NCBI RefSeq assembly: GCF_036967205.1
Contig: NZ_CP146022.1
Location: forward strand, 5,518,001 to 5,582,000
Reading direction: 5' to 3'
Source: Streptomyces sp. Q6
GTDB taxonomy: Bacteria; Actinomycetota; Actinomycetes; Streptomycetales; Streptomycetaceae
DNA length: 64,000 bases
Shown: positions 48,354 through 61,620 of the stretch, in pieces
How positions within the stretch are numbered: the stretch's first letter is position 1
Layout: every line of letters starts with the position of its first letter
Notes under the pieces: model-generated
Told to the model about the DNA's origin: nothing
The model's database searches: none
Seen by the model: only the letters and a program-made list of their open reading frames with translations
Position numbers and translations under genes: made by a program

Positions 48354-49618
48354 GTGGGACGGCATAGCCGCCGAGGACCGGCAGACAACGGCGATACCGC
48401 CGACATACCCGTAGCGCCCCCGGCGCCGGACCCCTCGCACCCCGGGCCCGGCTCAGGGCGCAGACGCAGGGGGCCCGCCCAGGCGGCGGGGGCCGGGCAC
48501 ATGCCCGCGCGGCCGAGCGCTCCGCAGGTGCGGGGCGGCCACCCGGAGCAGCGGGAACAGGGCGGCGGCTGGGGCGCGCCCGGCGCGGGACCGGTCCCTC
48601 CGGCGCGCGGACTCGGCGCGACCGCCGGGCAGCCGTCGATACCGCGTCCGCGACCGCGCCAGGACTACGTCGACGCGTTCGACGGCGCACCGCCCGCGCC
48701 GCGCGACCCGTACGCCGCCGTCACCGACTGGGACGACGAACCGCCCCTGCCGGTGCGCGAGCCGCTGCCGGAGGCCGACGCGCCTCGGGAGAAGCGCGGC
48801 AAGGGCTCACCTATACGGGCATCGCCGCCGCGGCCGTCACCACCGCGCTCGCGGTCGTCGTCGCCGGACAGGTCACGGGCCGGGACGGCGGGTCGTCGGG
48901 CGGCGTGCAGGCGCGGGCCGCGGACGGCGCGCGCGTCAAGGACGGCTCCGCGTCGCGCTCGGACGACCGGGCCACCCCGTCGCGCACGGCGCAGGCCGCG
49001 CCGGCGACGTACGCGCAGAAGATGGCCAAGAAGTACCCGCTCGCGGCGAACCTGAAGGCGTCGGGGAAGTTCGAGGCGATCGCCGGACTCGACAAGGCGC
49101 CGGGCAAGGGACAGAAGTTCCGCTACCGGGTCGACGTGGAGAAGGGGCTCGGGCTCGACGGCACCCTGTTCGCGCAGGCCGTCCAGAAGACCCTGAACGA
49201 CAAGCGGAGTTGGGCCCACGACGGGGCGCGCACCTTCGAGCGGATCTCGTCCGGCAAGCCGGACTTCGTGATCACGCTGGCGAGTCCGGGCACGACGGCG
49301 GACTGGTGCGCGAAGTCGGGGCTCGACACGACCGTGGACAACGTGTCGTGCGACTCCGCCGCCACCGACCGCGTGATGATCAACGCCTACCGTTGGGCCC
49401 AGGGCTCCACGACGTACGACAAGGAACTCGGCGCCCGCGCCATCCACCCGTACCGGCAGATGCTCATCAACCACGAGGTCGGCCACCGGCTCGGCTTCAA
49501 CCACGTGACCTGCTCGCAGGACGGCGCGCCTGCGCCGGTCATGCAGCAGCAGACCAAGTTCCTGACCTTCGACGGGATCACGTGCAAGGCCAACCCCTGG
49601 GCGTTTCCCAACGGTTGA
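48354..49618 (+). CDS. DUF3152 membrane-anchored zincin-like protein, frameshifted as sequenced
   Basis: GTG start 8 nt after the hydrolase stop. A disordered cytoplasmic part (about 1-150) leads to a membrane anchor (GIAAAAVTTALAVVVAGQV) and an extracytoplasmic domain with HEVGHRLGFNH (49472-49504), an exact HExxHxxGxxH zinc-metallopeptidase motif, and paired Cys. The frame shifts near 48802-48806: AAGGGCTC should encode Lys-Gly-Leu, which needs one more G or C. The repaired protein is about 421 residues. DUF3152 also neighbours moeZ and TetR in mycobacteria (Rv3207c). Proteolysis is inferred from the motif only. Confidence 0.85.
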
Positions 49619-49704
49619 CGCTCCGTAGTTTTTCGTAGCTGATTGATCTCTTAGCGCGACTGAACGTCACGCGCGCGGGAAAGTTACGACCGTTCACCCC
49701 TTTT

Positions 49705-49738
49705 GGTGGCGTGATGGACAACCGTCCATCACGCCACC
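49705..49738. promoter_or_regulatory. Perfect 15-bp palindrome between the DUF3152 gene and the polysaccharide locus
   Basis: GGTGGCGTGATGGAC, a 4-nt loop (AACC) and the exact complement. No T-run follows; TTTT precedes it. It may end the DUF3152 transcript or serve as an operator for the operon beginning at 49819. Confidence 0.65.
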
Positions 49739-49818
49739 GGCATGTCCGCATACGTTCGTCCCGCTGCGAGCCGCCGGGTCAACGGCGGCTCCCCACAAGG
49801 GAGATCGGGGGTGTACTC

Positions 49819-51876
49819 GTGCGCATCGGACTGCTTACCGAGGGTGGCTATCCGTATGTGAGCGGTGAGGCCAGACTCTGGTGCGACCGGCTTGTGCGCG
49901 GTCTCGAGCAGCATGAGTTCGACATCTACGCGCTCAGCCGCAGCCAGCAGCAGGAGGACGCGGGGTGGCTGGAACTGCCCCCGCAGGTCAGCCGCGTGCG
50001 GACCGCGCCGATGTGGACGCCGGGCGCGACGGGCTCCGGAGGATCGGACTACTCGGGTCACTCGGCGCACTCGGCGCACTCGGCGCACTCGGGTTACGAG
50101 GACGGAGTGCGGGGTGGCGGCCTGCGCTGGCGCGCACGGCGCCGGTTCAACGCCCTGTACGCGGAACTGGTCGAGGCCGTCGTCTGTGGTGCTCCCGCCG
50201 GCGGCGCGCCGGGCGGTCCCGGCGTCGCCGACGCCGAGGCGGACCGTTTCGCCAACGCGCTGTACGGACTCGCCGAACTCGCCCGCCACGAAGGCGGCCT
50301 CGGCCACGCGCTGCGCTCGGAAGCGGCCATGCGCATCCTGGAGCGCGCCTGTCGTGCGCCCGGCGCCCTGCGTGCGGCCCGCGCCGCCCGGGTGCCCGAC
50401 CTGCTCGCCTTCTCCGTGCACATGGAGCGCGCGCTGCGCCCGCTCTCCCTCGACTGGTACGACGACGCCTCCGGGTCGTACGACGGCGGAGGGCTCGGCT
50501 CCGTCGACCTGTGCCATGCGACGTCCGGCGGGGCTGCGGCCCTGCCCGGTCTGGTCGCCAAACGCTTCTTCGGCGTCCCGCTGCTCGTCACGGAGTACGG
50601 GGTGCAGCTCAGGGCCCGCTACATCGCCGCGGGCGACGCCGACCTGAGCGCGCCCGTCCGCGCGCTGCTCGCCGCCTTCCACGGCCGCCTCGCCGCCGAG
50701 GTCTACCGGCAGGCCGCCGTCATCACCCCGGGCAACACCCACGCCCGGCGCTGGCAGGAGCGGTGCGGCGCCGACCGCGCCAAGCTGCGCACCGTGCACC
50801 CTGGCATGGAGGCCTCGCGCTTCGCGGAGGTCGGCGAGCGGGAGGAGCCGGGGGAGCCCGACACCCTCGTCTGGGTCGGCCGGATCGACCCTTCCAAGGA
50901 CCTCATCTCCCTGCTGCACGCCTTCGCCGAGATCCGCAAGGAAGAACCGAAGGCGCGGCTGCGGATCGTATGGGCGATGCCGCGCAGGGCGGTCGCGGCC
51001 GCCGCGGGCGGGCCGGGTCCTGAGCGCTCCGAGGACCCCGAGGCCGAGGCGTACCTCGGGCACTGCAAGGCGCTCGCCGCGCAACTGTTCCCCGACGAGG
51101 CGGAGGGCATCCACGCCGTCGGCGAGAACCCCGTCTCCTTCGAGGAGCTCGGCGGCCCCGAAGCGCCCGACCTCGCCGACGCCTACGGCGCGGGCAGCGT
51201 CGTCGTCCTGTCGAGCGTCGTCGAGGGCTTCCCGATCAGCCTGGTCGAGGCCATGTTCTGCGGGCGCGCCACGGTGTCGACCGACGTGGGCGCCGTCGTC
51301 GAGGTCATCGGCGGCACCGGCCTCGTCGTCCCGCCGCGCAACCCGAAGGCGCTGGCCGAGGCCTGCGTGGCATTGCTGCGCGACCCCGAGCGCCGTGACC
51401 GGCTCGGAGCGGCGGCTCGGGCGCGGGCGCTGGAGCTGTTCACCGTCGAACAGAACGTCGCGGCATTTCGCGGCATTTACCTGGAGATCGTGTCGCACTG
51501 CCCGGTCCGCCGGGAGGCTCTGGACGACGCCGGGGAGCCGCTGCCGTTCTCCCACCCGCCGGAGGCGCATGTACCGGGGCGGTGGACGGCGCCGGGCGGC
51601 GCCGGAGCCGGCGGGACCTGGCTCGCCGGACGGTCCGCCGGTGCGGGGGAGCCCAGTTGGGCGTCGCGGTCCGGCGCTGTGCCGGAGGGCCAGGCGCCTG
51701 AGGCCGAGATGTCTGAGGCCGAGATGTCTGAGGGCGACGCGGGTCCGAGTGCGGGTTCGGGGTCTGGTTCGGGTTCGCGGCCGGGGGCCGGAGTGGATGA
51801 CGGGGATGACGGTGCCGGTCGGGAGCGGGAGCAGTTGGCCGGTGTGACGCAGGGCAGCGGGGAGAGGGATCTATGA
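49819..51876 (+). CDS. GT4 glycosyltransferase, PelF/DUF3492 type
   Basis: A 685-residue cytosolic glycosyltransferase. The N-terminus RIGLLTEGGYPYVSGEARLWCDRLV is the DUF3492 signature found in PelF enzymes. GT4 donor-site motifs follow: WVGRIDPSKDLISLLHAFAEI, SVVEGFPISLVEAMFCGRATVSTDVG and GLVVPPRNP. PelF uses UDP-N-acetylhexosamines to build Pel polysaccharide. Two low-complexity parts are unusual: a 9-bp tandem repeat encoding HSAHSAHS near residue 80, and a Ser/Gly/Glu-rich tail with a 15-bp repeat. GTG 49819 was chosen at the conserved start. ATGA overlap with the next gene. Confidence 0.88.
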   Translation: MRIGLLTEGGYPYVSGEARLWCDRLVRGLEQHEFDIYALSRSQQQEDAGWLELPPQVSRVRTAPMWTPGATGSGGSDYSGHSAHSAHSAHSGYEDGVRGGGLRWRARRRFNALYAELVEAVVCGAPAGGAPGGPGVADAEADRFANALYGLAELARHEGGLGHALRSEAAMRILERACRAPGALRAARAARVPDLLAFSVHMERALRPLSLDWYDDASGSYDGGGLGSVDLCHATSGGAAALPGLVAKRFFGVPLLVTEYGVQLRARYIAAGDADLSAPVRALLAAFHGRLAAEVYRQAAVITPGNTHARRWQERCGADRAKLRTVHPGMEASRFAEVGEREEPGEPDTLVWVGRIDPSKDLISLLHAFAEIRKEEPKARLRIVWAMPRRAVAAAAGGPGPERSEDPEAEAYLGHCKALAAQLFPDEAEGIHAVGENPVSFEELGGPEAPDLADAYGAGSVVVLSSVVEGFPISLVEAMFCGRATVSTDVGAVVEVIGGTGLVVPPRNPKALAEACVALLRDPERRDRLGAAARARALELFTVEQNVAAFRGIYLEIVSHCPVRREALDDAGEPLPFSHPPEAHVPGRWTAPGGAGAGGTWLAGRSAGAGEPSWASRSGAVPEGQAPEAEMSEAEMSEGDAGPSAGSGSGSGSRPGAGVDDGDDGAGREREQLAGVTQGSGERDL
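50050..50094 (+). repeat. 9-bp tandem repeat in the PelF-type gene
   Basis: CACTCGGCG occurs three times from 50059, flanked by one diverged copy on each side, encoding repeated Ser-Ala-His. Such repeats can change length between strains without breaking the frame. Confidence 0.75.
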
Positions 51877-53548
51877 GCGGGCGGGACGGCCGAGACGGTA
51901 CGGACGACAGGCGCGAGCGCGAGCGTGGAGCCGCCGGGGCGGATGTGCCCCGGGTACCGGTGAGCGCCGGTGTGGATGTGCCTCGGATGTCGGTGAGTGC
52001 CGGTGTGGATGTGCCTCGGGTGCCGGTGAGTTCCGGTGCGGATGTGCCGCGCGTGCCGGTGAGCGCCGGAGCCTGGGGTGCTGGATCCCAGGAGGCGCTG
52101 ACCGCGATGCCGCCGACGGCCGAACGGGACGGGCGGGGTGGTCTCGGCGACCTCGATGCTCTCGGTGCTCTGGACGAGCGCTTGGGCGAGGCGCTGGACG
52201 AGGGGTTCGGCGACGACCTGGACGAAGGGCTGTTGGAGACTCCCGGGGCGTGGCGGGTCGGCACCGGCGCCGGCGCCCGTGCCGACGGCGGAGCTCGCGA
52301 TGGCTCGGGCGGCTCAGGCGGTTCGGCTGCCCCGGGCGGCGTGGCCCACTCGGGACGGGGCGGCGAAGGCGCGCGCCCGGGTTCCCCCAGTGCCGCCACG
52401 ACCACTGACACCGCTACCACCCCCGCCATCCGTGCGGACGGTCGCCTCGCCAACTCCCGCACACAGCAACGCCGTTCAGGAGCCGACCCGGTCAAGGTCC
52501 TCATGCACCGGCACCGCGACCTGTGCGAGCGCGCCGTCGATCCACTGGAGATCGCGGCCGGGCTGGAAGCCCGCGGCGTGACCGACCGCACCGCCGCCCG
52601 CTACCGCCACAAGGACGTCTTCTCCCTCGCCGAGGAGATGTACGCGCGCATGCCGAGGGACGGCGACCCGGGCGAGCTGCTCATCGTCGCCCCGGCCGAG
52701 CCGACCGGCGTGCGCGGCGCGTGGGCGGGACTCGCCCTGCTGCCGGGCGCCGTCTGCGCGCTCGCGCTGCCGGCCCTCACCGCCACCGGCGGCACCGCCC
52801 GACTGGCCGTCGGCGTCGGCGCAGCGCTCGCCGTCGCCGCCGCCCTGCGCACGACCCTGCGGCACGGCCCCTGCGCGCCGCCGAAGGCTCGACCGCCCCG
52901 GCCACCCGCCTGTGGGTCTGGTGGCTGCTCGGCTACGCACTGCTCGGCGACGGCCTCCTGAACGCCGCGCTGGCCGGCGGGCCCGACGGGGCCTGGGCTC
53001 CGTCGTTTGCCCCGGTCCTCGCGCTCGCCGCCGCCGTGGCGCCCGCCACCTGGTGCGCGCACCTCTTCATCGCCGGTGCCCGCCGCCGACTCGCCACCAG
53101 CCGCGGCCTCGCCGAATTCGCCTCCTCCGCGCGGCCGTTGCTCCTCGGATCCGTCCTCCTGTTCGCTCTCGCCCTGACCGTGCTCCTCGCCCTGGCCGGA
53201 TCCCTGCTCGACCAGGACGCGGACTACGCCGCCGCGGGCGCCCTGGGCGTCCTGCTCCTGCTCGCCCGACTCCTCACCGCGCACGGACGCACCCACGCCC
53301 CCACCGTCGTACTCGGCGCGGCCGCCGCGGCCGAGGCCCTGGCTGTCGCGCTGGTCTTCGCCGCGCGACTGCCCGGCTGCGACGTCCTGGGCACCCCGGT
53401 CGAGGCGGCCGTCGACGCGGCGGGCGCGGGCGTCGTCCCCGCCACGGCCTGCGCCGTCGCCGCGCTCGCCCTGCTCGTCCACGCCACCCGCACGCTGACC
53501 CGCGCCTCCGCGCACGCCCACACCGACGGGGCGGGCGGTACGCCATGA
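51873..53548 (+). CDS. Polytopic membrane protein of the Pel-like locus, frameshifted as sequenced
   Basis: About 558 residues when repaired. A low-complexity N-terminus carries four 11-residue repeats (DVPRVPVSAG type). A cytoplasmic segment follows (HRHRDLCERAVDPLEIAAGLE ... RYRHKDVFSLAEEMYAR, split here), then about eight to ten membrane spans. The frame breaks near 52867-52870: GGCCCCTGC should be Gly-Pro-Leu (GGC CCN CTG), so one C is missing. It lies between pelF- and epimerase-like genes, the place for a polysaccharide exporter, polymerase helper or PelE/PelG-like part, but I cannot assign the family. ATGA overlaps join it to both neighbours. Confidence 0.75.
51936..52067 (+). repeat. 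33-bp tandem repeat (four units) encoding an 11-residue motif
   Basis: Four in-frame 33-bp units encode GADVPRVPVSA-type repeats with small substitutions (GVDVPRMSVSA, GVDVPRVPVSS). Confidence 0.8.
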
Positions 53549-53646
53549 CCGCCGCCGCCCTCACCACCCCCACCTTCTTCGGCGCCGTCGCCGTCTCCTA
53601 CGCCACCGAACGCGCCGGGCCGCCACGCCCACCGCGCGCCGCATGA
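53545..53646 (+). CDS. Small ORF (33 aa) coupled to the membrane protein gene
   Basis: Its ATG overlaps the stop of the membrane-protein gene (ATGA). It encodes a 33-residue peptide beginning MTAAALTTPTFFGAVAVSYATER, given here as start and class only, with a short hydrophobic stretch and a Pro/Arg-rich end. The overlap makes translation plausible, but no homology is known to me; it may be a remnant. Confidence 0.35.
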   Translation: MTAAALTTPTFFGAVAVSYATERAGPPRPPRAA

Positions 53647-53724
53647 CAAGAACCACCCACATCCCGCGGGGCCGACACCGCGGGACGAACCGATCCACGG
53701 CAACACCCCTAAGGAGAACGCCAG

Positions 53725-53862
53725 ATGACCACCCCTCCTCCCGGAGGCACCGGATATGCCGGATACTCCGGACCTCACGGGCAGCGCGGAACCCACGACC
53801 GGCGCGCTCGACGCGCGGCGCCGGGAGCGCTCCGAACGCGCACCGCCGGAGGTGCCCGATGA
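53725..53862 (+). CDS. Small ORF (45 aa) coupled to the epimerase gene
   Basis: AAGGAG lies 8 nt before the ATG, the best ribosome site in this region, and the stop overlaps the epimerase ATG (ATGA). The product begins MTTPPPGGTGYAGYSGPHGQ and ends Arg-rich. It may be a leader cistron that drives epimerase translation, since the epimerase ATG has no equally strong site of its own. Confidence 0.45.
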   Translation: MTTPPPGGTGYAGYSGPHGQRGTHDRRARRAAPGALRTRTAGGAR

Positions 53863-54830
53863 GGGTCCTGCTGATCGGAGCCAACGGATATCTCGGCCGC
53901 TTCGTCGCCGACCGGCTGCTCGCCGACCCCGCCGTGCAGCTGACCGCGCTCGGCCGAGGCGACGACGCCGACGTCCGCTTCGACCTCGCCACCGGCAGCC
54001 CGGGCGCGCTCACCCGCTTCCTGGACGCCGTCCACCCCGGAGTGGTCATCAACTGTGCCGGTGCCACCCGCGGCGGCGCCCGCGACCTCACCCGGCACAA
54101 CACCGTCGCCGTCGCCACCGTCTGCGAGGCCCTGCGCCGCAGCGGCTGCGGCGCCCGACTGGTACAGATCGGCTGCGGCGCCGAGTACGGCCCGTCGCAG
54201 CCCGGCTCGTCCACCGCCGAGGACGCGGTGCCCCGCCCCGGCGGCCCGTACGGCGTCAGCAAGCTCGCCGCCACCGAACTGGTCCTCGGCTCCGGCCTCG
54301 ACGCCGTCGTCCTGCGCGTCTTCTCGCCCGCAGGCCCCGGCACCCCGGCCGGATCCCCGCTCGGCCGGCTCGCCGAGGCGATGCGCCGCGCGATGCAGGC
54401 CGGCGACGGCGAACTGAAACTCGGCGGCCTCGGCGCACAGCGCGACTTCATCGACGTACGGGACGTGGCCCGCGCCGTGCACGCCGCGTCCCTCTCCGCC
54501 GCACAGGGCGTCATCAACATCGGCTCGGGCCGCGCCGTCCGACTGCGGGACGCGGCCGCCGTGCTCGCCCGCGTCGCCGGATTCGGCGGCGCTCTCCACG
54601 AACTGGACGCGCCGTCTCTCGGGCTGAGGCAATCCGTCGCCCACCCGCGCACCGAATCCGACCACGGGATGCACGGCCCGTCGGCCGCCGCGTACCCGTA
54701 CCCCGACGGCTGCGGCAGCTGGCAGCAGGCCGACGTGCGCACCGCGCGCGACCGGCTCGGCTGGCGTCCGCGCATCAACCTCGAAGAGTCCCTCGCCGAC
54801 ATCTGGATGGAGGCGGCATGCCGTATCTGA
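53859..54830 (+). CDS. NAD-dependent epimerase/dehydratase (SDR), PelX-like position
   Basis: A 323-residue extended SDR. The NAD site is RVLLIGANGYLGRF at the N-terminus; the catalytic Tyr-x3-Lys is in PYGVSKLAATE, and the Ser/Thr position is probably in LVQIGCGAEYG. Family members interconvert nucleotide sugars; Pel loci often carry a UDP-GlcNAc 4-epimerase (PelX). Supply of UDP-GalNAc to the GT4 enzyme is therefore the natural hypothesis. Its 3' end overlaps the next gene by 13 nt. Confidence 0.85.
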   Translation: MRVLLIGANGYLGRFVADRLLADPAVQLTALGRGDDADVRFDLATGSPGALTRFLDAVHPGVVINCAGATRGGARDLTRHNTVAVATVCEALRRSGCGARLVQIGCGAEYGPSQPGSSTAEDAVPRPGGPYGVSKLAATELVLGSGLDAVVLRVFSPAGPGTPAGSPLGRLAEAMRRAMQAGDGELKLGGLGAQRDFIDVRDVARAVHAASLSAAQGVINIGSGRAVRLRDAAAVLARVAGFGGALHELDAPSLGLRQSVAHPRTESDHGMHGPSAAAYPYPDGCGSWQQADVRTARDRLGWRPRINLEESLADIWMEAACRI

Positions 54831-55567
54831 CCCCTGTCACGACCGGCCAGTCGAGCACTGATGTACGCCTGGGCTTCGGCGTCCCAGGATTCGCCCACCC
54901 CCTCGTCGCCCCCACCGAATGGGGCGAACTCACCCGCCCGGCAACCCCTTTGCACTGGGTTGTCCTCAATGTCGCCAATGGGCCGGGGGCCCGCCCCGAC
55001 CCCCACTGCCTGGCGGCGGCGGGCCGGCTTCGCAACGCGGGAGTACGTGTCCTTGGTCACCTGGACATGACCTACGGCGCCCGCTCCTTCGGTGAACTCG
55101 TCTCCGACGCCCACCGCTTCCTGGACTGGTACCAGGTCGACGGCTTCTCCGTGGACCGCTGCCCCACCGAGCGGGCCGCCCTCCCCGAGGTCCGGCGCAC
55201 CGTCACGACGCTGCGCGCGCTCGTCGACGACGCGTACATCGTGCTCGGCCACGGCACCCACCCGTACCCCGGATACGCCGAGACCGCCGACCAGTTGGTG
55301 ACGTTCTCCGGCCCCTGGAGCGACTACCGCTGGTCGCAGGTCGCCGAATGGACCGCCGACTATCCGCCCGAGCGGTTCTGCCACTTCGTCCACGGCATGC
55401 CCCGAGGGCATCTGGAAGAGGCGCTGCGCATCGCGCGCTGGCAGGGCGCCGGCACCATCTACTTCACCGACCGCACGGACCGCGGTGGCCCGAGCGCCCC
55501 CTGGGAGTCGATGCCCGGTTACTGGGACGAGATCGTCTCGCGTATCGGACCAGGTGTCTCGGAATGA
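54818..55567 (+). CDS. Spherulation-specific family 4 protein (spherulin-4/Sph3-PelA-type glycoside hydrolase)
   Basis: A 249-residue TIM-barrel protein of the spherulin-4 group. The barrel motif segments HWVVLNVANGPG, VLGHLDMTYGARS and WYQVDGFSVDRCP, with acidic residues at strand ends (Asp in LDMTYG; Asp in VDGFSVD), match glycosidases of the Sph3/Ega3/PelA hydrolase clan that cleave galactosaminogalactan or Pel. No signal peptide is seen, which is odd for an extracellular glycosidase. ATG 54818 lies inside the end of the epimerase gene, so it is translationally coupled. Confidence 0.82.
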   Translation: MPYLTPVTTGQSSTDVRLGFGVPGFAHPLVAPTEWGELTRPATPLHWVVLNVANGPGARPDPHCLAAAGRLRNAGVRVLGHLDMTYGARSFGELVSDAHRFLDWYQVDGFSVDRCPTERAALPEVRRTVTTLRALVDDAYIVLGHGTHPYPGYAETADQLVTFSGPWSDYRWSQVAEWTADYPPERFCHFVHGMPRGHLEEALRIARWQGAGTIYFTDRTDRGGPSAPWESMPGYWDEIVSRIGPGVSE

Positions 55568-55630: not shown

Positions 55631-56809
55631 GTGTCGCTGCCACCCCTGGTCGAGCCAGCTGCTGAGCTCACCGTAGACGAGGTCCGCAGGTACTCCCGCC
55701 ACCTGATCATCCCGGATGTCGGGATGGACGGGCAGAAGCGGCTGAAGAACGCCAAGGTGCTGGCCGTGGGCGCCGGCGGCCTCGGCTCCCCGGCCCTCAT
55801 GTACCTGGCCGCCGCCGGCGTGGGCACGCTGGGCATCGTGGAGTTCGACGAGGTCGACGAGTCCAACCTGCAGCGTCAGATCATCCACAGCCAGGCCGAC
55901 ATCGGCCGCTCGAAGGCGGAGTCCGCGAAGGACTCGGTCCTCGGCATCAACCCGTACGTGAACGTGATCCTCCACGAAGAGCGGCTCGAGGCCGACAACG
56001 TGATGGACATCTTCAGCCAGTACGACCTGATCGTCGACGGCACCGACAACTTCGCGACGCGGTACCTCGTCAACGACGCGTGCGTGCTGCTCAACAAGCC
56101 CTACGTGTGGGGTTCCATCTACCGCTTCGACGGCCAGGCCTCGGTCTTCTGGTCCGAGCACGGGCCGTGCTACCGCTGCCTGTACCCGGAGCCCCCGCCG
56201 CCGGGCATGGTCCCCTCCTGCGCCGAGGGCGGCGTCCTGGGCGTGCTGTGCGCGTCCATCGGCTCCATCCAGGTCACCGAGGCGATCAAGGTCCTGGCCG
56301 GCGTCGGCGACCCGCTGGTCGGCCGCCTGATGATCTACGACGCTCTTGAGATGCAGTACCGCCAGGTCAAGGTCCGCAAGGACCCGAACTGCGCGGTCTG
56401 CGGTGAGAACCCGACCGTCACCGAGCTCATCGACTACGAGGCCTTCTGCGGTGTCGTGTCCGAAGAGGCGCAGGAGGCGGCCGCCGGTTCGACGATCACT
56501 CCCAAGCAGCTCAAGGAGTGGATCGACGACGGCGAGAGCATCGAGATCATCGACGTCCGCGAGCCGAACGAGTACGAGATCGTCTCCATCCCGGGCGCCA
56601 AGCTGATCCCGAAGAACGAGTTCCTCATGGGCACCGCCCTCGAAGGACTGCCGCAGGACAAGAAGATCGTCTTGCATTGCAAGACGGGTGTCCGCAGTGC
56701 GGAAGTCCTCGCCGTGCTGAAGTCCGCGGGCTTCGCGGACGCCGTGCACGTCGGCGGCGGCGTCATCGGCTGGGTCAACCAGATCGAGCCGAGCAAGCCG
56801 GTCTACTAG
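55631..56809 (+). CDS. moeZ: Adenylyltransferase/sulfurtransferase MoeZ
   Basis: A 392-residue two-domain enzyme. The ThiF/MoeB-type domain has the nucleotide loop GAGGLGSPAL (about 48-57), catalytic Asp in DGTDNFATRY, and zinc cysteines Cys180/183 and Cys254/257. The C-terminal rhodanese domain has active-site Cys350 in HCKTGVRS. It adenylates and thiocarboxylates small carrier proteins used in molybdopterin, thio-metabolite and cysteine synthesis. GTG 55631. It sits at the end of the locus as in mycobacteria (moeB1, Rv3206c), so the link to the polysaccharide genes is probably positional only. Confidence 0.93.
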   Translation: MSLPPLVEPAAELTVDEVRRYSRHLIIPDVGMDGQKRLKNAKVLAVGAGGLGSPALMYLAAAGVGTLGIVEFDEVDESNLQRQIIHSQADIGRSKAESAKDSVLGINPYVNVILHEERLEADNVMDIFSQYDLIVDGTDNFATRYLVNDACVLLNKPYVWGSIYRFDGQASVFWSEHGPCYRCLYPEPPPPGMVPSCAEGGVLGVLCASIGSIQVTEAIKVLAGVGDPLVGRLMIYDALEMQYRQVKVRKDPNCAVCGENPTVTELIDYEAFCGVVSEEAQEAAAGSTITPKQLKEWIDDGESIEIIDVREPNEYEIVSIPGAKLIPKNEFLMGTALEGLPQDKKIVLHCKTGVRSAEVLAVLKSAGFADAVHVGGGVIGWVNQIEPSKPVY

Positions 56810-56903: not shown

Positions 56904-58529
56904 TCAGGAGCACACCGTGCCGTCGCGCGGTATTCGACCCTCCAGTAGATAGTCGTTGACCGCCGAGTCGACGCAGGAGCTGCCGGAGCCGTACGCGCCG
57001 TGCCCCTCGCCCTTCCACGTCAGCTCGACGCCGACACCCTTGCCCAACTCGTCGGCCATCCGCCGCGCACCCTCGTACGGCGTCGCCGGGTCTCCCGTGT
57101 TGCCCACCACGAGCACCGGCGCCGCGCCCGGCGCGCTCACCTCCGGGTCCTTCCACTGACCCGCGACCGGCCAGTCGTGGCACCAGCCCGCCGTGTCCCA
57201 GCCCATGTACGCGCCGAAGACCGGCGAGATCTCCCGGAACCTCGCCAGCCGCTTCTTCGTCTCCGCCGCCGTCGGCCGTACCTTGTCGTCCAGGCAGGAG
57301 ATCGCGCGCTGCGAGTGGCTCGATGTGCCGTAATGACCGCTCGCGTCACGGTCGTTGTACGAGTCGGCGAGCGCGAGGAGCGAGGTGCCGTCGCCCTTCT
57401 CCGCGTCCTTGAGCCCCCGGGTCAGGGCGGGCCAGCTGTTCTTGCTGTACAGAGTGACCGCGATGCCGGTCGTCGCGAGCGACTCGTTCAACTCCCGGCC
57501 GCCCGACGTCGGGAGAGGGTGTTCGTCCAGGCGCTTCAGGAGCGCCGCGATCTCGCGCGAGCCCTCCTTCGGGTCCTTGCCGCGGGACTTCAGATAGTTG
57601 TCGAGCGCGCGCTGGAAGCCGCGCGCCTGGTTCTCCGCCTGCCCGACCCGTCCCGCTGTCGGGTCGACCACCGCGTCCAGCGTGAGCCGGCCCACCTTGT
57701 CGGGGAACAAGTGGGCGTAGACGCCGCCCAGTTCGGTGCCGTACGAGACGCCCATGTAGTGCAGCTCGTCGTCCCCGAGCACCTGCCGCATCAGGTCCAT
57801 GTCGCGGGCCGCCTCGATGGTCGACACATGACCCAGCAGGTCACCTGCCGTGCGGCAGCCCTGCCCGAAGTCGGCGGCGTCCTTGAAGTACGCCTTCTCT
57901 TCCCCGGCCGTGTCCGGAGTGAGGTCGACGGACTCCGCGGCCTGCGTCTCCTTGTCGCTGCGGCACCGCACACCACGGCTCGCCGCGACCCCGCGCGGAT
58001 CGAAGCTGACCAGGTCGTAGCGCTCGCGCAATTTCGCGTACTGCGGTGCGAAGGCCGGCAGCAGATCCACACCGGAACCGCCCGGGCCGCCGAAGTTGAA
58101 CAGCAGCGAGCCGATCCGCTCGCCCCGGTCGCCGCGTGCCTCGGCCCGGATCAGGGCGATGTCGATCGTCGGCCCGTCCGGCTTCGCGTAGTCGAGCGGT
58201 GCCTTGAGCTTCGCGCACCGCCAGTCGGAGCCGGGCGCGGGCGCGCTCCCGGTCGACGTACAGCGACCCCAGTCGAGGCGCTGCCCGGTGATCGAGGAAG
58301 GGAGCGCGGGCAGCGCCGCGGCGCGCGGTGTCGAGCTCCCCGAGCGCGATGCCTCGCCGCTGCCCGCGGCGGGCGGTTTCGGATCGGCCCTTCCGCCTTC
58401 CCCGCCCGAACTGCAGCCCGCGACCAGGCCGATCGCCACCGCGGCGACCACCGCCAGCCTGCGGGCGCGGGCCCCCTGTTCTGCGCGTGTGCGTACGCCC
58501 GCGTGGGCATGCGCGTCCTGTGCCGCCAT
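56904..58529 (-). CDS. Secreted tripeptidyl-aminopeptidase-like alpha/beta hydrolase (lipoprotein), paralogue A
   Basis: A 541-residue exported enzyme. The signal peptide ends in a lipobox (GLVAGCSS, Cys39). The hydrolase core has FGGPGGSG (oxyanion), nucleophile Ser262 in GVSYGTELGG, an Asp in GNTGDPATPYE, and His in GEGHGAYG, with the TAP C-terminal domain. This is the SlpD/SlpE/Tap family of Streptomyces mycelial or secreted aminopeptidases. It lies downstream of a close paralogue, 96 nt apart. Specificity is not predictable. Confidence 0.88.
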   Translation of the reverse strand: MAAQDAHAHAGVRTRAEQGARARRLAVVAAVAIGLVAGCSSGGEGGRADPKPPAAGSGEASRSGSSTPRAAALPALPSSITGQRLDWGRCTSTGSAPAPGSDWRCAKLKAPLDYAKPDGPTIDIALIRAEARGDRGERIGSLLFNFGGPGGSGVDLLPAFAPQYAKLRERYDLVSFDPRGVAASRGVRCRSDKETQAAESVDLTPDTAGEEKAYFKDAADFGQGCRTAGDLLGHVSTIEAARDMDLMRQVLGDDELHYMGVSYGTELGGVYAHLFPDKVGRLTLDAVVDPTAGRVGQAENQARGFQRALDNYLKSRGKDPKEGSREIAALLKRLDEHPLPTSGGRELNESLATTGIAVTLYSKNSWPALTRGLKDAEKGDGTSLLALADSYNDRDASGHYGTSSHSQRAISCLDDKVRPTAAETKKRLARFREISPVFGAYMGWDTAGWCHDWPVAGQWKDPEVSAPGAAPVLVVGNTGDPATPYEGARRMADELGKGVGVELTWKGEGHGAYGSGSSCVDSAVNDYLLEGRIPRDGTVCS

Positions 58530-58625
58530 GGCACCTCCCCCCTCGACCGCCCTCGCTCGAAGGACAGTCAGGCCATCGTAGGAGGCACCGCAGACATCTG
58601 CTCCGGCCTGTGGAAAACCCCGCGA

Positions 58626-60173
58626 TCAGGTGCAGACCGTTCCCTCTTTCGGGACCGTCCCGTCGAGGAGATAGTCGTTCACCGCGCTGTGCACGCACGT
58701 GCTGTCGCTGTCGTACGCCCCGTGCCCCTGGCCCTTGTACGTCAGCTCGACGCCCACACCGTCGCCGAGCGCGTCCACCATCTTCCGCGCGCCCTCGTAC
58801 GGGGTGGCGGGGTCCCCGGTGTTCCCGACGACCAGGATCGGGGCGGAGCCCGACGCGCTGACGTCGGGGTGGTCGGCGGTGCCGTCGACCGCCCAGTTCG
58901 TGCAGCCGAGCATGCCCCAGGCGAGGTAGTCGCCGAACAGCGGAGAGGCCTCGCGGAACTCGGGCAGCTTCGCCTCGACGTCCTCGGTGGTGTAACGCGG
59001 CTTGTCGTCGGCGCAGTTGATGGAGACGTTCGCGGCCTGGATGTTGCTGTACCGGCCGTCCTCGTTCCGCCCGTTCATCGAGTCCGACAGCAGCATCAGG
59101 ATCTTGCCGTCATCGTCGTACGCCTGCTGAAGGCCCTCGGTGAGGTACTCCCAGAAGTCCTGCGAGTACAGGGACTGGGCGATGCCGTTGGTGGCGGCGG
59201 TCTGCGTCAGATCACGCGGGAAGATGCCCGGGATCGGCTTGTCGTCGAGTTCCTTGAGGAGCTTGGCGATCTTGGCCTTGACCTCCGCGGGCGTGTCCCC
59301 GATCGGGCAGTCCTCGGTCTTGGACGTGCAGTCCTTCGCGTAGTTGTCGAGGGCGAGCTGGAAGCCCTTGGCCTGTCCGAGGGAGCCCTGCTCCGGGTCC
59401 TGCGTGGGGTCGACGACGCCGTCGAACACGGCGCGGCCCACGTTCTTGGGGAACAAGTGGGCGTAGACGCCGCCCAGTTCGGTGCCGTACGAGATCCCGA
59501 AGTAGTGCAGCTTGTCGTCGCCGAGGACCTGGCGCATCAGATCCATGTCGCGGGCCGCGTCCGTGGTGCGTACGTGGGGGAGGACCGTGCCGGAGTTCTT
59601 GTCGCAGGCCTTGTTGAACGACGTGATGTTGTCGACGAGCTTCTTCTGCTCCTCCGCGTCGTCGGGCGTCGAGTCCTGCTCGAAGTACTCGTCGAGCTGC
59701 TCGTCGTCCTCGCACTCCACGCCCGCGCTGCGGCCCACCCCGCGCGGATCGAAGCTCACGAGGTCGTAGCGGGTGCGCAGCTTCGCGTAGTCGGAGCCGA
59801 ACGCCGGCAGGGTCGTGACGCCCGAGCCGCCGGGCCCGCCGAAGTTGAAGATCAGCGAACCGATGCGCTGGTCCTCGTCACCGCTCGCCCGCGCGCGGAT
59901 CAGCGCGAGATCGATGGTGTCACCCTCGGGGTCGTCCCAGTTCAGCGGCGCTTTCATGGTGGCGCACTGCCACTCGGCGCCGCCGGGCAGCGGGGAGGGA
60001 GCGTCGCCGCCGCCCTCGGACGCCGAAGGGGCGGGGCAGTCCTTCCAGCTCAGTGCCTGGGACGGCAGATCCACGTCGTCCTTCGCGTCGCTGCTGCAAG
60101 CCGCGAGGGAGGCGGAGAGCAGGGCGGCGGAGACGGCCAGGGCAGCGGCGCGGGGCCGGGACGGATTGGGCAT
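58626..60173 (-). CDS. Secreted tripeptidyl-aminopeptidase-like alpha/beta hydrolase (lipoprotein), paralogue B
   Basis: A 515-residue paralogue of the next gene downstream. Signal peptide with lipobox SLAAC (Cys26), FGGPGGSG, nucleophile Ser229 in GISYGTELGG, and a His in GQGHGAYD. ATG 60173 was chosen because a clean signal peptide starts there; an upstream in-frame ATG at 60335 would bury it. The two paralogues share long blocks (AARDMDLMRQVLGDD; GVYAHLFP), so a tandem duplication is clear. Confidence 0.9.
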   Translation of the reverse strand: MPNPSRPRAAALAVSAALLSASLAACSSDAKDDVDLPSQALSWKDCPAPSASEGGGDAPSPLPGGAEWQCATMKAPLNWDDPEGDTIDLALIRARASGDEDQRIGSLIFNFGGPGGSGVTTLPAFGSDYAKLRTRYDLVSFDPRGVGRSAGVECEDDEQLDEYFEQDSTPDDAEEQKKLVDNITSFNKACDKNSGTVLPHVRTTDAARDMDLMRQVLGDDKLHYFGISYGTELGGVYAHLFPKNVGRAVFDGVVDPTQDPEQGSLGQAKGFQLALDNYAKDCTSKTEDCPIGDTPAEVKAKIAKLLKELDDKPIPGIFPRDLTQTAATNGIAQSLYSQDFWEYLTEGLQQAYDDDGKILMLLSDSMNGRNEDGRYSNIQAANVSINCADDKPRYTTEDVEAKLPEFREASPLFGDYLAWGMLGCTNWAVDGTADHPDVSASGSAPILVVGNTGDPATPYEGARKMVDALGDGVGVELTYKGQGHGAYDSDSTCVHSAVNDYLLDGTVPKEGTVCT

Positions 60174-60237
60174 GCGTCCATCCTGCGGTGGCCCGGTGCG
60201 GGGCGCTCGGGCTGCGGGCTGTGCGGGTGAGGGTCCG

Positions 60238-61620
60238 TCAATACGCGGCCCCGGCCACGACCCGGAGGGCCGCGGCCCGGCCCGAGGCCACACAGGACGC
60301 GACATCCATGCCTGCGTAGGCCGCGCCGCACACATCGAGGCCGGGCAGCGCCTTCAACGCCGCTCGGATCGTGTCGATCCGCTCACCATGGCCGACGTCG
60401 AACTGCGGCAGAGCGTTCTCCCAGCGGGTGACACGCGCGGCGACCGGCTCCCCTAAGGCGCCCACGGCCAGCCGCAGTTCTACGACGGCGCTGCGTATCA
60501 AGTGCCGGTCGGGGACGGCCAGTCGGTGCTCCTCTCCTATGTGTCCCAAAGAGGCGCGCAACAAGAAGAGACCTGGTTCGGCGTCGTCCACGTGCCGCCA
60601 TTTGTTGGACAAGAAGGTGACCTCCCGCGTGGCACGTCTCTCGATAGGAGGGACGACGTATCCGTTCCCCTCGGGAGGGCGTCGCGGCATCGTCGCGCGG
60701 GCGAAGGCCAGGGTGACCACGGCGGTCCCCGCGTGCCGGACACCGGCCAGCCCGGCCTCGGCGACGGGTGCGTGCGGGCGCAGCAGCGCGGCGGCGGGGC
60801 CCGCGGGCAGCGCGCAGATCACGGCGTCCGTCTCCATGACGAGCGGTCCGTCCCCGGTGGTGGCCAGCACCCGCCAGCGTCCGGCCGGTGTGCGCCGCAC
60901 CTCGTGCGCGCGCGTCTCGGTCAGGACGCGGGCGCCGCTCGCCGTCGCGACGGCCTGCGGCAGTCGGCCCAGGCCGCCGTCGACGCCGTACGCCGCCGTG
61001 GCCGGGGAGGGTGCTGTGGACAGGGTGGCCCGCACCTCCCGGACCACGGACCCGCCCCGGCGGGCGACGGCGGCGAGGCGGGGCAGCGCGGCCCGCAGCG
61101 AGAGCCGGTCGGCGAGACCGCCGCCGCGGGCGCCGAGCAGCGGGTCGACGAGGCGGTCGACGGCCTCTCTGCCGATCCGCCCCGCGAGGTACTCGGCGAC
61201 CGGTACGTCGCCCTCCAGGCCGTGCGCGGGAAGCGCTTCTTCCTGGCTCAGCCGATTGATGCCGTCGTCGGACAGCAGGCCGGTGCCGGTGAGCGCGGCC
61301 GGCTCGGCGGGGATCCCCCTCACCTGCCGGGCGGGCAGCGGACGCAGAGCGCCGTCCGACCAGATGCACAGGGCTGCGTCGGCGGGTTCGCGCAGCGCGT
61401 CCGCGAGTCCCACGTCACGGGCGAGGGCGAGGGCTTCCGGCTGCTCCGCCGTCAGCACCTCGGCGCCCACGTCGACCGGGACCCCCGCTACGTAGACGGA
61501 ACGCAGCTGGCCACCCACGCGCGGAGCGCTCTCCAGGACGGTGACATCGGCGTGCTTCCGCAGTTCCCAGGCCGCGGCGAGCCCGCTGATTCCGCCGCCG
61601 ATGACGATTGCTGAACGCAT
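60238..61620 (-). CDS. Protoporphyrinogen/coproporphyrinogen oxidase family flavoenzyme (HemG/HemY-like)
   Basis: A 460-residue FAD enzyme. The dinucleotide site IVIGGGISGLAAAWEL opens the protein, followed by VDVGAEVLTAEQPEAL, and the C-terminus has the FAD-contacting GLDVCGAAYAGMDVASCVASGRAAA. Central motifs VYGVDGGLGRL-like AYGVDGGLGRLPQ match HemY/PPO proteins. It would oxidise (copro)porphyrinogen in haem synthesis. No other hem genes are visible near it, so its role cannot be confirmed here. It lies 65 nt upstream of the peptidase pair in the same direction, with a different likely role. Confidence 0.82.
   Translation of the reverse strand: MRSAIVIGGGISGLAAAWELRKHADVTVLESAPRVGGQLRSVYVAGVPVDVGAEVLTAEQPEALALARDVGLADALREPADAALCIWSDGALRPLPARQVRGIPAEPAALTGTGLLSDDGINRLSQEEALPAHGLEGDVPVAEYLAGRIGREAVDRLVDPLLGARGGGLADRLSLRAALPRLAAVARRGGSVVREVRATLSTAPSPATAAYGVDGGLGRLPQAVATASGARVLTETRAHEVRRTPAGRWRVLATTGDGPLVMETDAVICALPAGPAAALLRPHAPVAEAGLAGVRHAGTAVVTLAFARATMPRRPPEGNGYVVPPIERRATREVTFLSNKWRHVDDAEPGLFLLRASLGHIGEEHRLAVPDRHLIRSAVVELRLAVGALGEPVAARVTRWENALPQFDVGHGERIDTIRAALKALPGLDVCGAAYAGMDVASCVASGRAAALRVVAGAAY

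Follow-up and report, generated by a model that had tools for sequence, protein, structure and literature searches.

What kind of glycan system is encoded by the four-gene block that lies upstream of moeZ in Streptomyces sp. Q6? The block occupies positions 49819 to 55567 of a window of 64,000 nt (the whole stretch of DNA analyzed, from a genome of 8.95 Mb) and encodes a glycosyltransferase (GT), a membrane protein, a short-chain dehydrogenase/reductase (SDR), and a Spherulin4-family protein (Spherulin), preceded by a structured RNA leader. An earlier note on this DNA had read it as a reduced locus for the exopolysaccharide Pel. The present comparisons favor another reading, with a probability of about one half: the block would be a Streptomycetaceae module that was derived from glycan synthase operons of the Agd3/galactosaminogalactan (GAG) type and then repurposed, with a function that we infer, and not a standard Pel locus. 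Comparison across loci shows that all four proteins share descent with such operons and that the Spherulin, the SDR, and the GT carry conserved changes at or close to their active sites. Positions are coordinates of the window, and L and G numbers are labels of compared loci and genomes. The features are as follows.

49690..49818, plus strand: structured 5' leader (covariance model R1), defined by conservation, minimum-energy folding, and covariation
49819..51876, plus strand: glycosyltransferase (DUF3492/GT4) with a GTG start codon, placed in the Agd3-type clade, from profile scans and the tree
51873..53548, plus strand: polytopic membrane protein with a MOP-like predicted fold, split by a -1 frameshift, from open reading frames (ORFs), orthologues, and a model
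53859..54830, plus strand: SDR of the NAD-dependent epimerase/reductase-like kind, with YxxxK retained and Cys106 in place of the catalytic Ser, from profile scans and alignment
54818..55567, plus strand: Spherulin4-family protein without signal peptide, Ser164 at the position of Sph3 Glu222, probable pseudo-glycosidase
55631..56809, plus strand: moeZ, the constant downstream neighbor, a landmark that is not claimed as part of the system

Gene content and conservation of the block

The family assignments of the earlier note were borne out: Pfam and NCBIfam hidden Markov model scans placed the GT in DUF3492 (E 1.9e-28) with additional GT4 domains, the SDR in Epimerase PF01370 (E 4.8e-37), and the Spherulin in PF12138 (82.2 bits, above the gathering score of 30.2), and the membrane protein is polytopic in a structural model. 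The order GT, membrane protein, SDR, Spherulin, and moeZ was found in 76 of 80 named loci, which is far beyond chance and agrees with the conservation of gene order that the earlier note had named as a check; these loci were retrieved by the membrane protein, whose presence in them is by construction. Three of the exceptions (L158, L196, and L199) are contig ends, and the fourth (L200) retains a Spherulin remnant only. That the four genes are coupled holds for the GT and membrane genes, which overlap by 4 nt, and for the SDR and Spherulin genes, which overlap by 13 nt here and likewise in 71 of 73 named loci, but not across the gap of about 310 nt between the membrane gene and the SDR gene, nor for the membrane gene of the window, which is frameshifted.

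At a threshold of E 1e-60, which lets paralogues through too, the GT was matched in 130 of 132 Streptomyces genomes, and the 15 genomes from elsewhere in the order gave no match. The Spherulin was matched in 59 of 61 Streptomyces genomes; in G001 and G028, at 38 and 42% identity, the best match is a paralogue-like one. Of 246 genomes sampled across the phylum, the eight Streptomyces genomes contained the membrane family, which was otherwise seen only as a partial match in G262; the Spherulin was present in the same eight and in two genomes of one other genus (G071, E 6e-27; G100, E 2e-28) that encode a canonical PelF. Within the Streptomycetaceae, the membrane protein was detected at E 1e-10 in 61 of 81 genomes, representing 12 of 17 genera; the weaker of these matches may be paralogues.

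Phylogenetic position of the glycosyltransferase

A tree of 53 sequences was inferred that comprised 15 core-locus enzymes, Agd3-type enzymes, PelF proteins, and other GT4 enzymes. The 15 core-locus GTs form a single clade (100/100) within an Agd3-type clade of 32 rows (100/100), and their nearest relatives are Agd3-type enzymes of Streptomyces (98/93). The sister group of the Agd3-type clade (100/98) consists of eight PelF proteins, six of which adjoin an annotated pelG, and one Paenarthrobacter GT (L251). A grouping of the core enzymes with PelF was rejected (approximately unbiased test, p 2.5e-6), which places the GT outside the PelG-associated PelF clade; the test was run once the initial tree had been inspected, and its hypothesis is that of the earlier note and thus prior. 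The branch of the core GTs is long, at about one change per site, as are those of several other rows. The claim of canonical Pel membership was therefore not sustained: the earlier note had held that a GT outside the PelF clade would speak against it, and the outcome lies close to this, although Agd3-type and PelF enzymes form one DUF3492 superclade apart from other GT4 enzymes (100/99). Its broader claim of kinship with the machinery for GalNAc polymers is supported.

In a set of 95 core rows of the GT (76 from named loci and 19 from G genomes), the EX7E motif is retained, with both E469 and E477 in all 92 lettered rows, as is the GRxxPxK motif (K360 in 94 of 95). In GT4 enzymes, the GGVS loop contacts the donor phosphate. 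Its second Gly is replaced by Asp or Glu in all 94 lettered core rows (96 rows with the window, two of them gapped), whereas it is Gly in the eight PelF proteins and in 12 of 12 relatives; the latter were counted from 14 rows filed as paralogues, which include a core fragment (L048) and a canonical PelF (L089), both gapped in the loop.

Comparison with Agd3-type loci and known systems

Eleven paralogous loci from nine Streptomyces genomes were compared. All contain the GT, the Spherulin, and the membrane family; a relative of the SDR is present in six, a nucleotidyltransferase with a dehydratase-like SDR in six, GH114 in six within the stretches covered, and a relative of a 715-aa protein of L212 in ten. 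On an annotated plasmid of S. californicus, the genes for this 715-aa protein, pelF, the membrane protein, an SDR, a nucleotidyltransferase, an oxidoreductase, Spherulin4, and GH114 adjoin one another, and variant loci occur on plasmids of Deinococcus, Kocuria, and Thermus. By Pfam, the protein of about 700 aa is strongly Agd3-like, over the cut-off, in G262 (L083; PF25116, E 3.5e-14; PF25115, E 2.8e-11) and in Deinococcus (L213 and L253); in Thermus (L215), a single domain exceeds the cut-off, and in Kocuria (L214), the match stays under it. Among Streptomyces loci, L088 lies just over the cut-off (27.7 versus 27.6 bits) and L079 under it, and the proteins of L212 and L080 had no Agd3 match in Pfam; the 715-aa protein of L212 matches the Agd3-like protein of L083 (26% identity, E 1.9e-24).

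Bacterial Agd3 operons have been described in which a cytoplasmic GT and an integral membrane protein occur together with GH114 and, in some cases, Spherulin-4 (PMC7229062). The core locus resembles them, as judged on the loci collected here and not on the operons of that paper, in its GT clade, polytopic membrane family, SDR, and Spherulin4. It differs in its lack of the Agd3/CBM87 deacetylase (no such protein was found in it with Pfam), of the nucleotidyltransferase, and of GH114, in the loss of the Spherulin Glu and the replacement of the SDR Ser by Cys, and in its RNA leader and position next to moeZ. The fungal GAG cluster (uge3, gtb3, sph3, ega3, and agd3) has the same kinds of parts, but Sph3 has both Asp and Glu, whereas the core Spherulin lacks the Glu; fungal Gtb3 is a predicted integral-membrane glycosyltransferase (PMC7229062). 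With the Gram-positive pelDEA(DA)FG loci (PMC7112168), the core locus shares a DUF3492-type GT and the frequent proximity of an epimerase and a glycoside hydrolase, but its GT belongs to a different clade and it has no visible PelD, PelE, deacetylase, or sequence-recognizable PelG. The earlier note had likewise recognized no deacetylase or PelD, and neither family appeared when the locus proteins were scanned with Pfam and NCBIfam, a search that distant forms could escape.

A catalytic residue lost in the Spherulin

The closest solved relative of the Spherulin is Sph3 (chain 5c5g, E 4.7e-7), whose Asp166 and Glu222 align with Asp113 and Ser164 of the window protein. In this alignment, both residues correspond to the chain index plus 50, consistent with D166 and Glu222; the D166A variant of Sph3 is inactive (PMC8546845), and Glu222 is the catalytic Glu in a paper that prints the aspartate as Asp196 (PMC12054363). 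The active site was mapped by sequence only, since the AlphaFold model had a predicted local distance difference test score (pLDDT) of 35. The catalytic Glu is present in none of 93 core orthologues (Ser in 65, Arg in 12, Ala in 10, and others), which come from 73 of the 80 named loci (match from residue 1 to 3) and 20 G loci, and it is also absent in two other genera (L304 and L305). The catalytic Asp is kept in 80 of the 93 and absent in 13. All 12 relatives from other loci, defined as rows below 58% identity (11 Streptomyces paralogues and L089 from another genus), have both residues. The core protein is thus a probable pseudo-glycosidase, and the cognate glycosidase of the earlier proposal loses its footing. 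Three His positions are fixed (H145, H189, and H192 in 93 of 93 rows) and a fourth nearly so (H148 in 92), which argues that the protein is under selection, although hydrolase activity is improbable. Even so, its gene has disappeared or decayed in L279, L280, L200, L306, and L307, where the SDR, the membrane gene, and moeZ are kept; in L279 and L306, the GT also appears disrupted or missing.

The absence of a signal peptide, on which the earlier note had remarked, was confirmed in 73 named loci, where no 10-residue stretch among the first 45 residues exceeds a hydrophobicity of 1.34. By the same crude measure, the Agd3-type Spherulins of L212 and L214 score 1.74 and 1.08, and the GH114 and Agd3-like neighbors in L212 score 2.35 and 2.24. 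The low values of the two Spherulins suggest that a cytosolic location may be ancestral.

The membrane protein and the SDR

No Pfam or NCBIfam family worth keeping was found for the membrane protein (one Pfam match, E 0.24). An orthologue was modeled as all-helical and polytopic, with a conserved N-terminal domain of about 55 aa and a helical part of about 280 residues, and the predicted fold best matches flippases of the MOP superfamily (MOP/MATE/Wzx-like). Among the 50 matches listed by VIA-align, WzxE occupies rows 11, 12, and 18 and MurJ row 13; no PelG or PelE chain is among these 50, which excludes nothing. PelG is itself a member of the MOP superfamily. The earlier statement that a PelG-type flippase is missing is correct at the level of sequence, as hhalign gave no similarity to PelG, but the predicted fold suggests that a flippase may be present at the locus in the form of this MOP-like protein. 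Compared with MATE, Wzx, and MurJ, it is shorter and carries the additional N-terminal domain. PelG (PF16933) was not found at the locus; partial matches occur in 15 of 61 genomes, six of them over the cut-off. The genome studied has such a partial match elsewhere, in a long frame (G000:C1:1775518-1775883; 29.3 bits, cut-off 29), and Thermotoga maritima was the sole control genome of 14 to match both PelF and PelG.

In the window, the membrane gene is not a single open frame but is divided between the ORF 51873-52961 and the frame of the ORF 52523-53548. A -1 frameshift lies between 52863 and 52912, where 50 nt stand against 51 in the nearest sampled relative, and 79 of 80 named loci have the gene in frame; the shift may be a true mutation or a misassembly at a C-run. 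Like the RNA leader, it is a point beyond the earlier note.

The SDR keeps Tyr and Lys in 100 of 100 core rows, all of which have Cys at the position that we take to be the Ser of the Ser-Tyr-Lys triad; Ser is present in seven of seven relatives (six from Streptomyces and L083). The name epimerase thus stands for the family, but epimerase activity is not supported. Agd3-type loci can include a 4,6-dehydratase-like SDR together with a nucleotidyltransferase, and by this analogy the core enzyme could act as a ketoreductase instead of a 4-epimerase. L083, L088, L212, L213, and L253 contain a nucleotidyltransferase, some with a LegB- or GDP-mannose-dehydratase-like SDR, and the sugar may not be plain GalNAc.

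A structured RNA leader

The 129 nt upstream of the GT start have a mean column identity of 89% in 30 chosen loci (alignments of 32 and 30 of about 92 leaders; L037 was excluded, as its upstream sequence looks degraded). The minimum-energy fold of the window leader contains four helices (-75.4 kcal/mol, z -6.4). P1 pairs CACCCC (49695-49700) with GGGGUG (49808-49813) and ends 5 nt upstream of the start codon; P2 (49704-49719 with 49724-49739) has 16 bp and an AACC loop; P3, the inner stem that includes GGGA, pairs 49753-49762 with 49799-49807; and P4, a second hairpin, pairs 49769-49775 with 49784-49790 and is unaligned in 14 of 22 divergent rows. Pair changes on both sides numbered 6 in an unfitted alignment (2.7 in shuffled ones, 2 of 500 as high), 12 in 79 model-fitted rows (shuffled 3.0, 0 of 500), and 15 in the 22 divergent model-fitted rows (shuffled 5.6, 0 of 500), the two latter alignments being biased towards the structure of the R1 model to which they were fitted. 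The 79 rows are matches from 80 sources, with none from L091 and L281 and two from L048, one of them antisense. The four pairs of the P2 tip GGAC-AACC-GUCC are invariant in these rows, and the outer stem P1 hardly varies, so that its support is mainly conservation. G-U pairs are frequent (26 of 79 rows at one P2 pair), which speaks for an RNA rather than a DNA palindrome. The ribosome-binding site of the GT is probably masked by P1, because GGGGGUG resembles a Shine-Dalgarno sequence and CACCCC its complement.

R1 matched 55 of 61 Streptomyces genomes and, in the phylum sample, eight of eight (G229 only at E 0.0016); matches there in G140 (E 0.0048) and G169 (E 0.0026), outside the genus, were taken as chance. 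Among 21 non-Streptomyces genomes chosen for their membrane-protein matches, 14 had R1, representing seven of ten other genera, whereas no match at E <0.5 was obtained in 17 paralogue or PelF loci. The leader belongs to no Rfam family at the gathering score; the best weak match, CC1840 (E 0.12, 27.6 versus 50 bits), was rejected.

A gene for a DUF3152 protein (48905-49618, E 8.3e-60) lies immediately upstream of the leader. Beyond moeZ, within 56904-61620, there are two neighboring minus-strand TAP-like alpha/beta hydrolases and then a flavin amine oxidoreductase (60238-61620).

Expression and mutant data

From matching annotation, we take SCO5174 to SCO5177 of S. coelicolor, upstream of SCO5178 (moeB), to be this locus. 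SCO5178 is named moeB in PMC4340878. SCO5174, SCO5175, and SCO5177 are upregulated by log2 2.2-3.8 in the second versus the first mycelium (PMC3610822), and a mutant in SCO5174, listed as a putative glycosyltransferase possibly involved in cell-wall synthesis, has reduced actinorhodin (PMC6585502). These data fit an envelope or matrix glycan that is used in differentiation. The published traces of the locus that were found are single genes in expression tables and a mutant list. The locus was not found described as a system in the open-access literature, to which the search was largely confined, and the terms searched were not in the main text of the BldM/WhiI paper (PMC4125116). Bacterial Agd3-type operons are already published (PMC7229062), and their deacetylase-less, moeZ-linked form was not found in print within that literature.

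Proposed mechanism and alternatives

If the block is a repurposed Agd3/GAG-type module, the leader would open on a signal during development, and the cytoplasmic GT, with its EX7E motif kept, would build a hexosamine glycan at the inner membrane. Outward transport of this glycan, or of its lipid-linked form, would fall to the MOP-like protein, and the SDR would supply or modify the sugar nucleotide. The cytosolic pseudo-glycosidase would bind the glycan without cutting it, as a dispensable accessory or tuning subunit. A bolder version can be offered only tentatively. In it, the block would be a developmental glycan system of the whole family: all three enzymes, inherited from an ancient operon for a galactosamine polymer, would have changed at or close to their active sites, the former glycosidase would bind glycan in the cytosol as a subunit of the system, and an RNA of a new class, marked by the invariant GGAC-AACC-GUCC tip, would gate translation by sensing a developmental factor or a sugar nucleotide.

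Somewhat unlikely, yet the best of the alternatives, is that no polymer is made and that the GT transfers a single sugar, or a few, to a lipid carrier, a wall glycopolymer, or a protein, with the membrane protein flipping a lipid-linked product in the manner of Wzx. The presence of WzxE and MurJ among the matches of the model, a GT loop that differs from that of the eight PelF proteins examined, and the lack at the locus of a remaining polymer-modifying enzyme with an intact active site would all agree with this, but the kinship is with operons that bear polymer deacetylases and hydrolases. It is improbable that the whole module is a sensor or scaffold, in which a membrane-anchored pseudo-GT, pseudo-SDR, and pseudo-glycosidase would pass a signal from a sugar nucleotide or from the wall on to development. 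Such a role would account for the changes in or near three active sites and for the actinorhodin phenotype (PMC6585502), but the EX7E motif of the GT and the YxxxK of the SDR are kept in every lettered core row, and the Pfam and NCBIfam scans revealed no regulatory domain. Least probable is a reduced Pel locus whose product is a cationic matrix polymer rich in GalNAc and whose cognate hydrolase is active, since the DUF3492 and Spherulin4 families and a GT score just under the cut-off for PelF (NF038011, 97.4 bits, cut-off 100, exceeded by three other Streptomyces orthologues, in G219, G013, and G240, with neighboring in-frame pieces summed) stand against the clade test, the lost catalytic Glu, the missing signal peptide, and the lack of a cationizing deacetylase among the scanned locus proteins.

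Implications

The phylogeny gives Agd3-type GTs a clear position beside PelF, which bears on the proposal that the fungal GAG cluster is of bacterial origin (PMC7229062). The block adds a case of retained glycan machinery whose hydrolase has probably lost catalysis, and its leader is a candidate cis-regulatory RNA with covariation evidence. What emerges is a probable locus for an envelope or matrix glycan, retained in nearly all sampled Streptomyces and in related genera and undescribed as far as found, whose genes appear to be induced in the differentiating mycelium of S. coelicolor.

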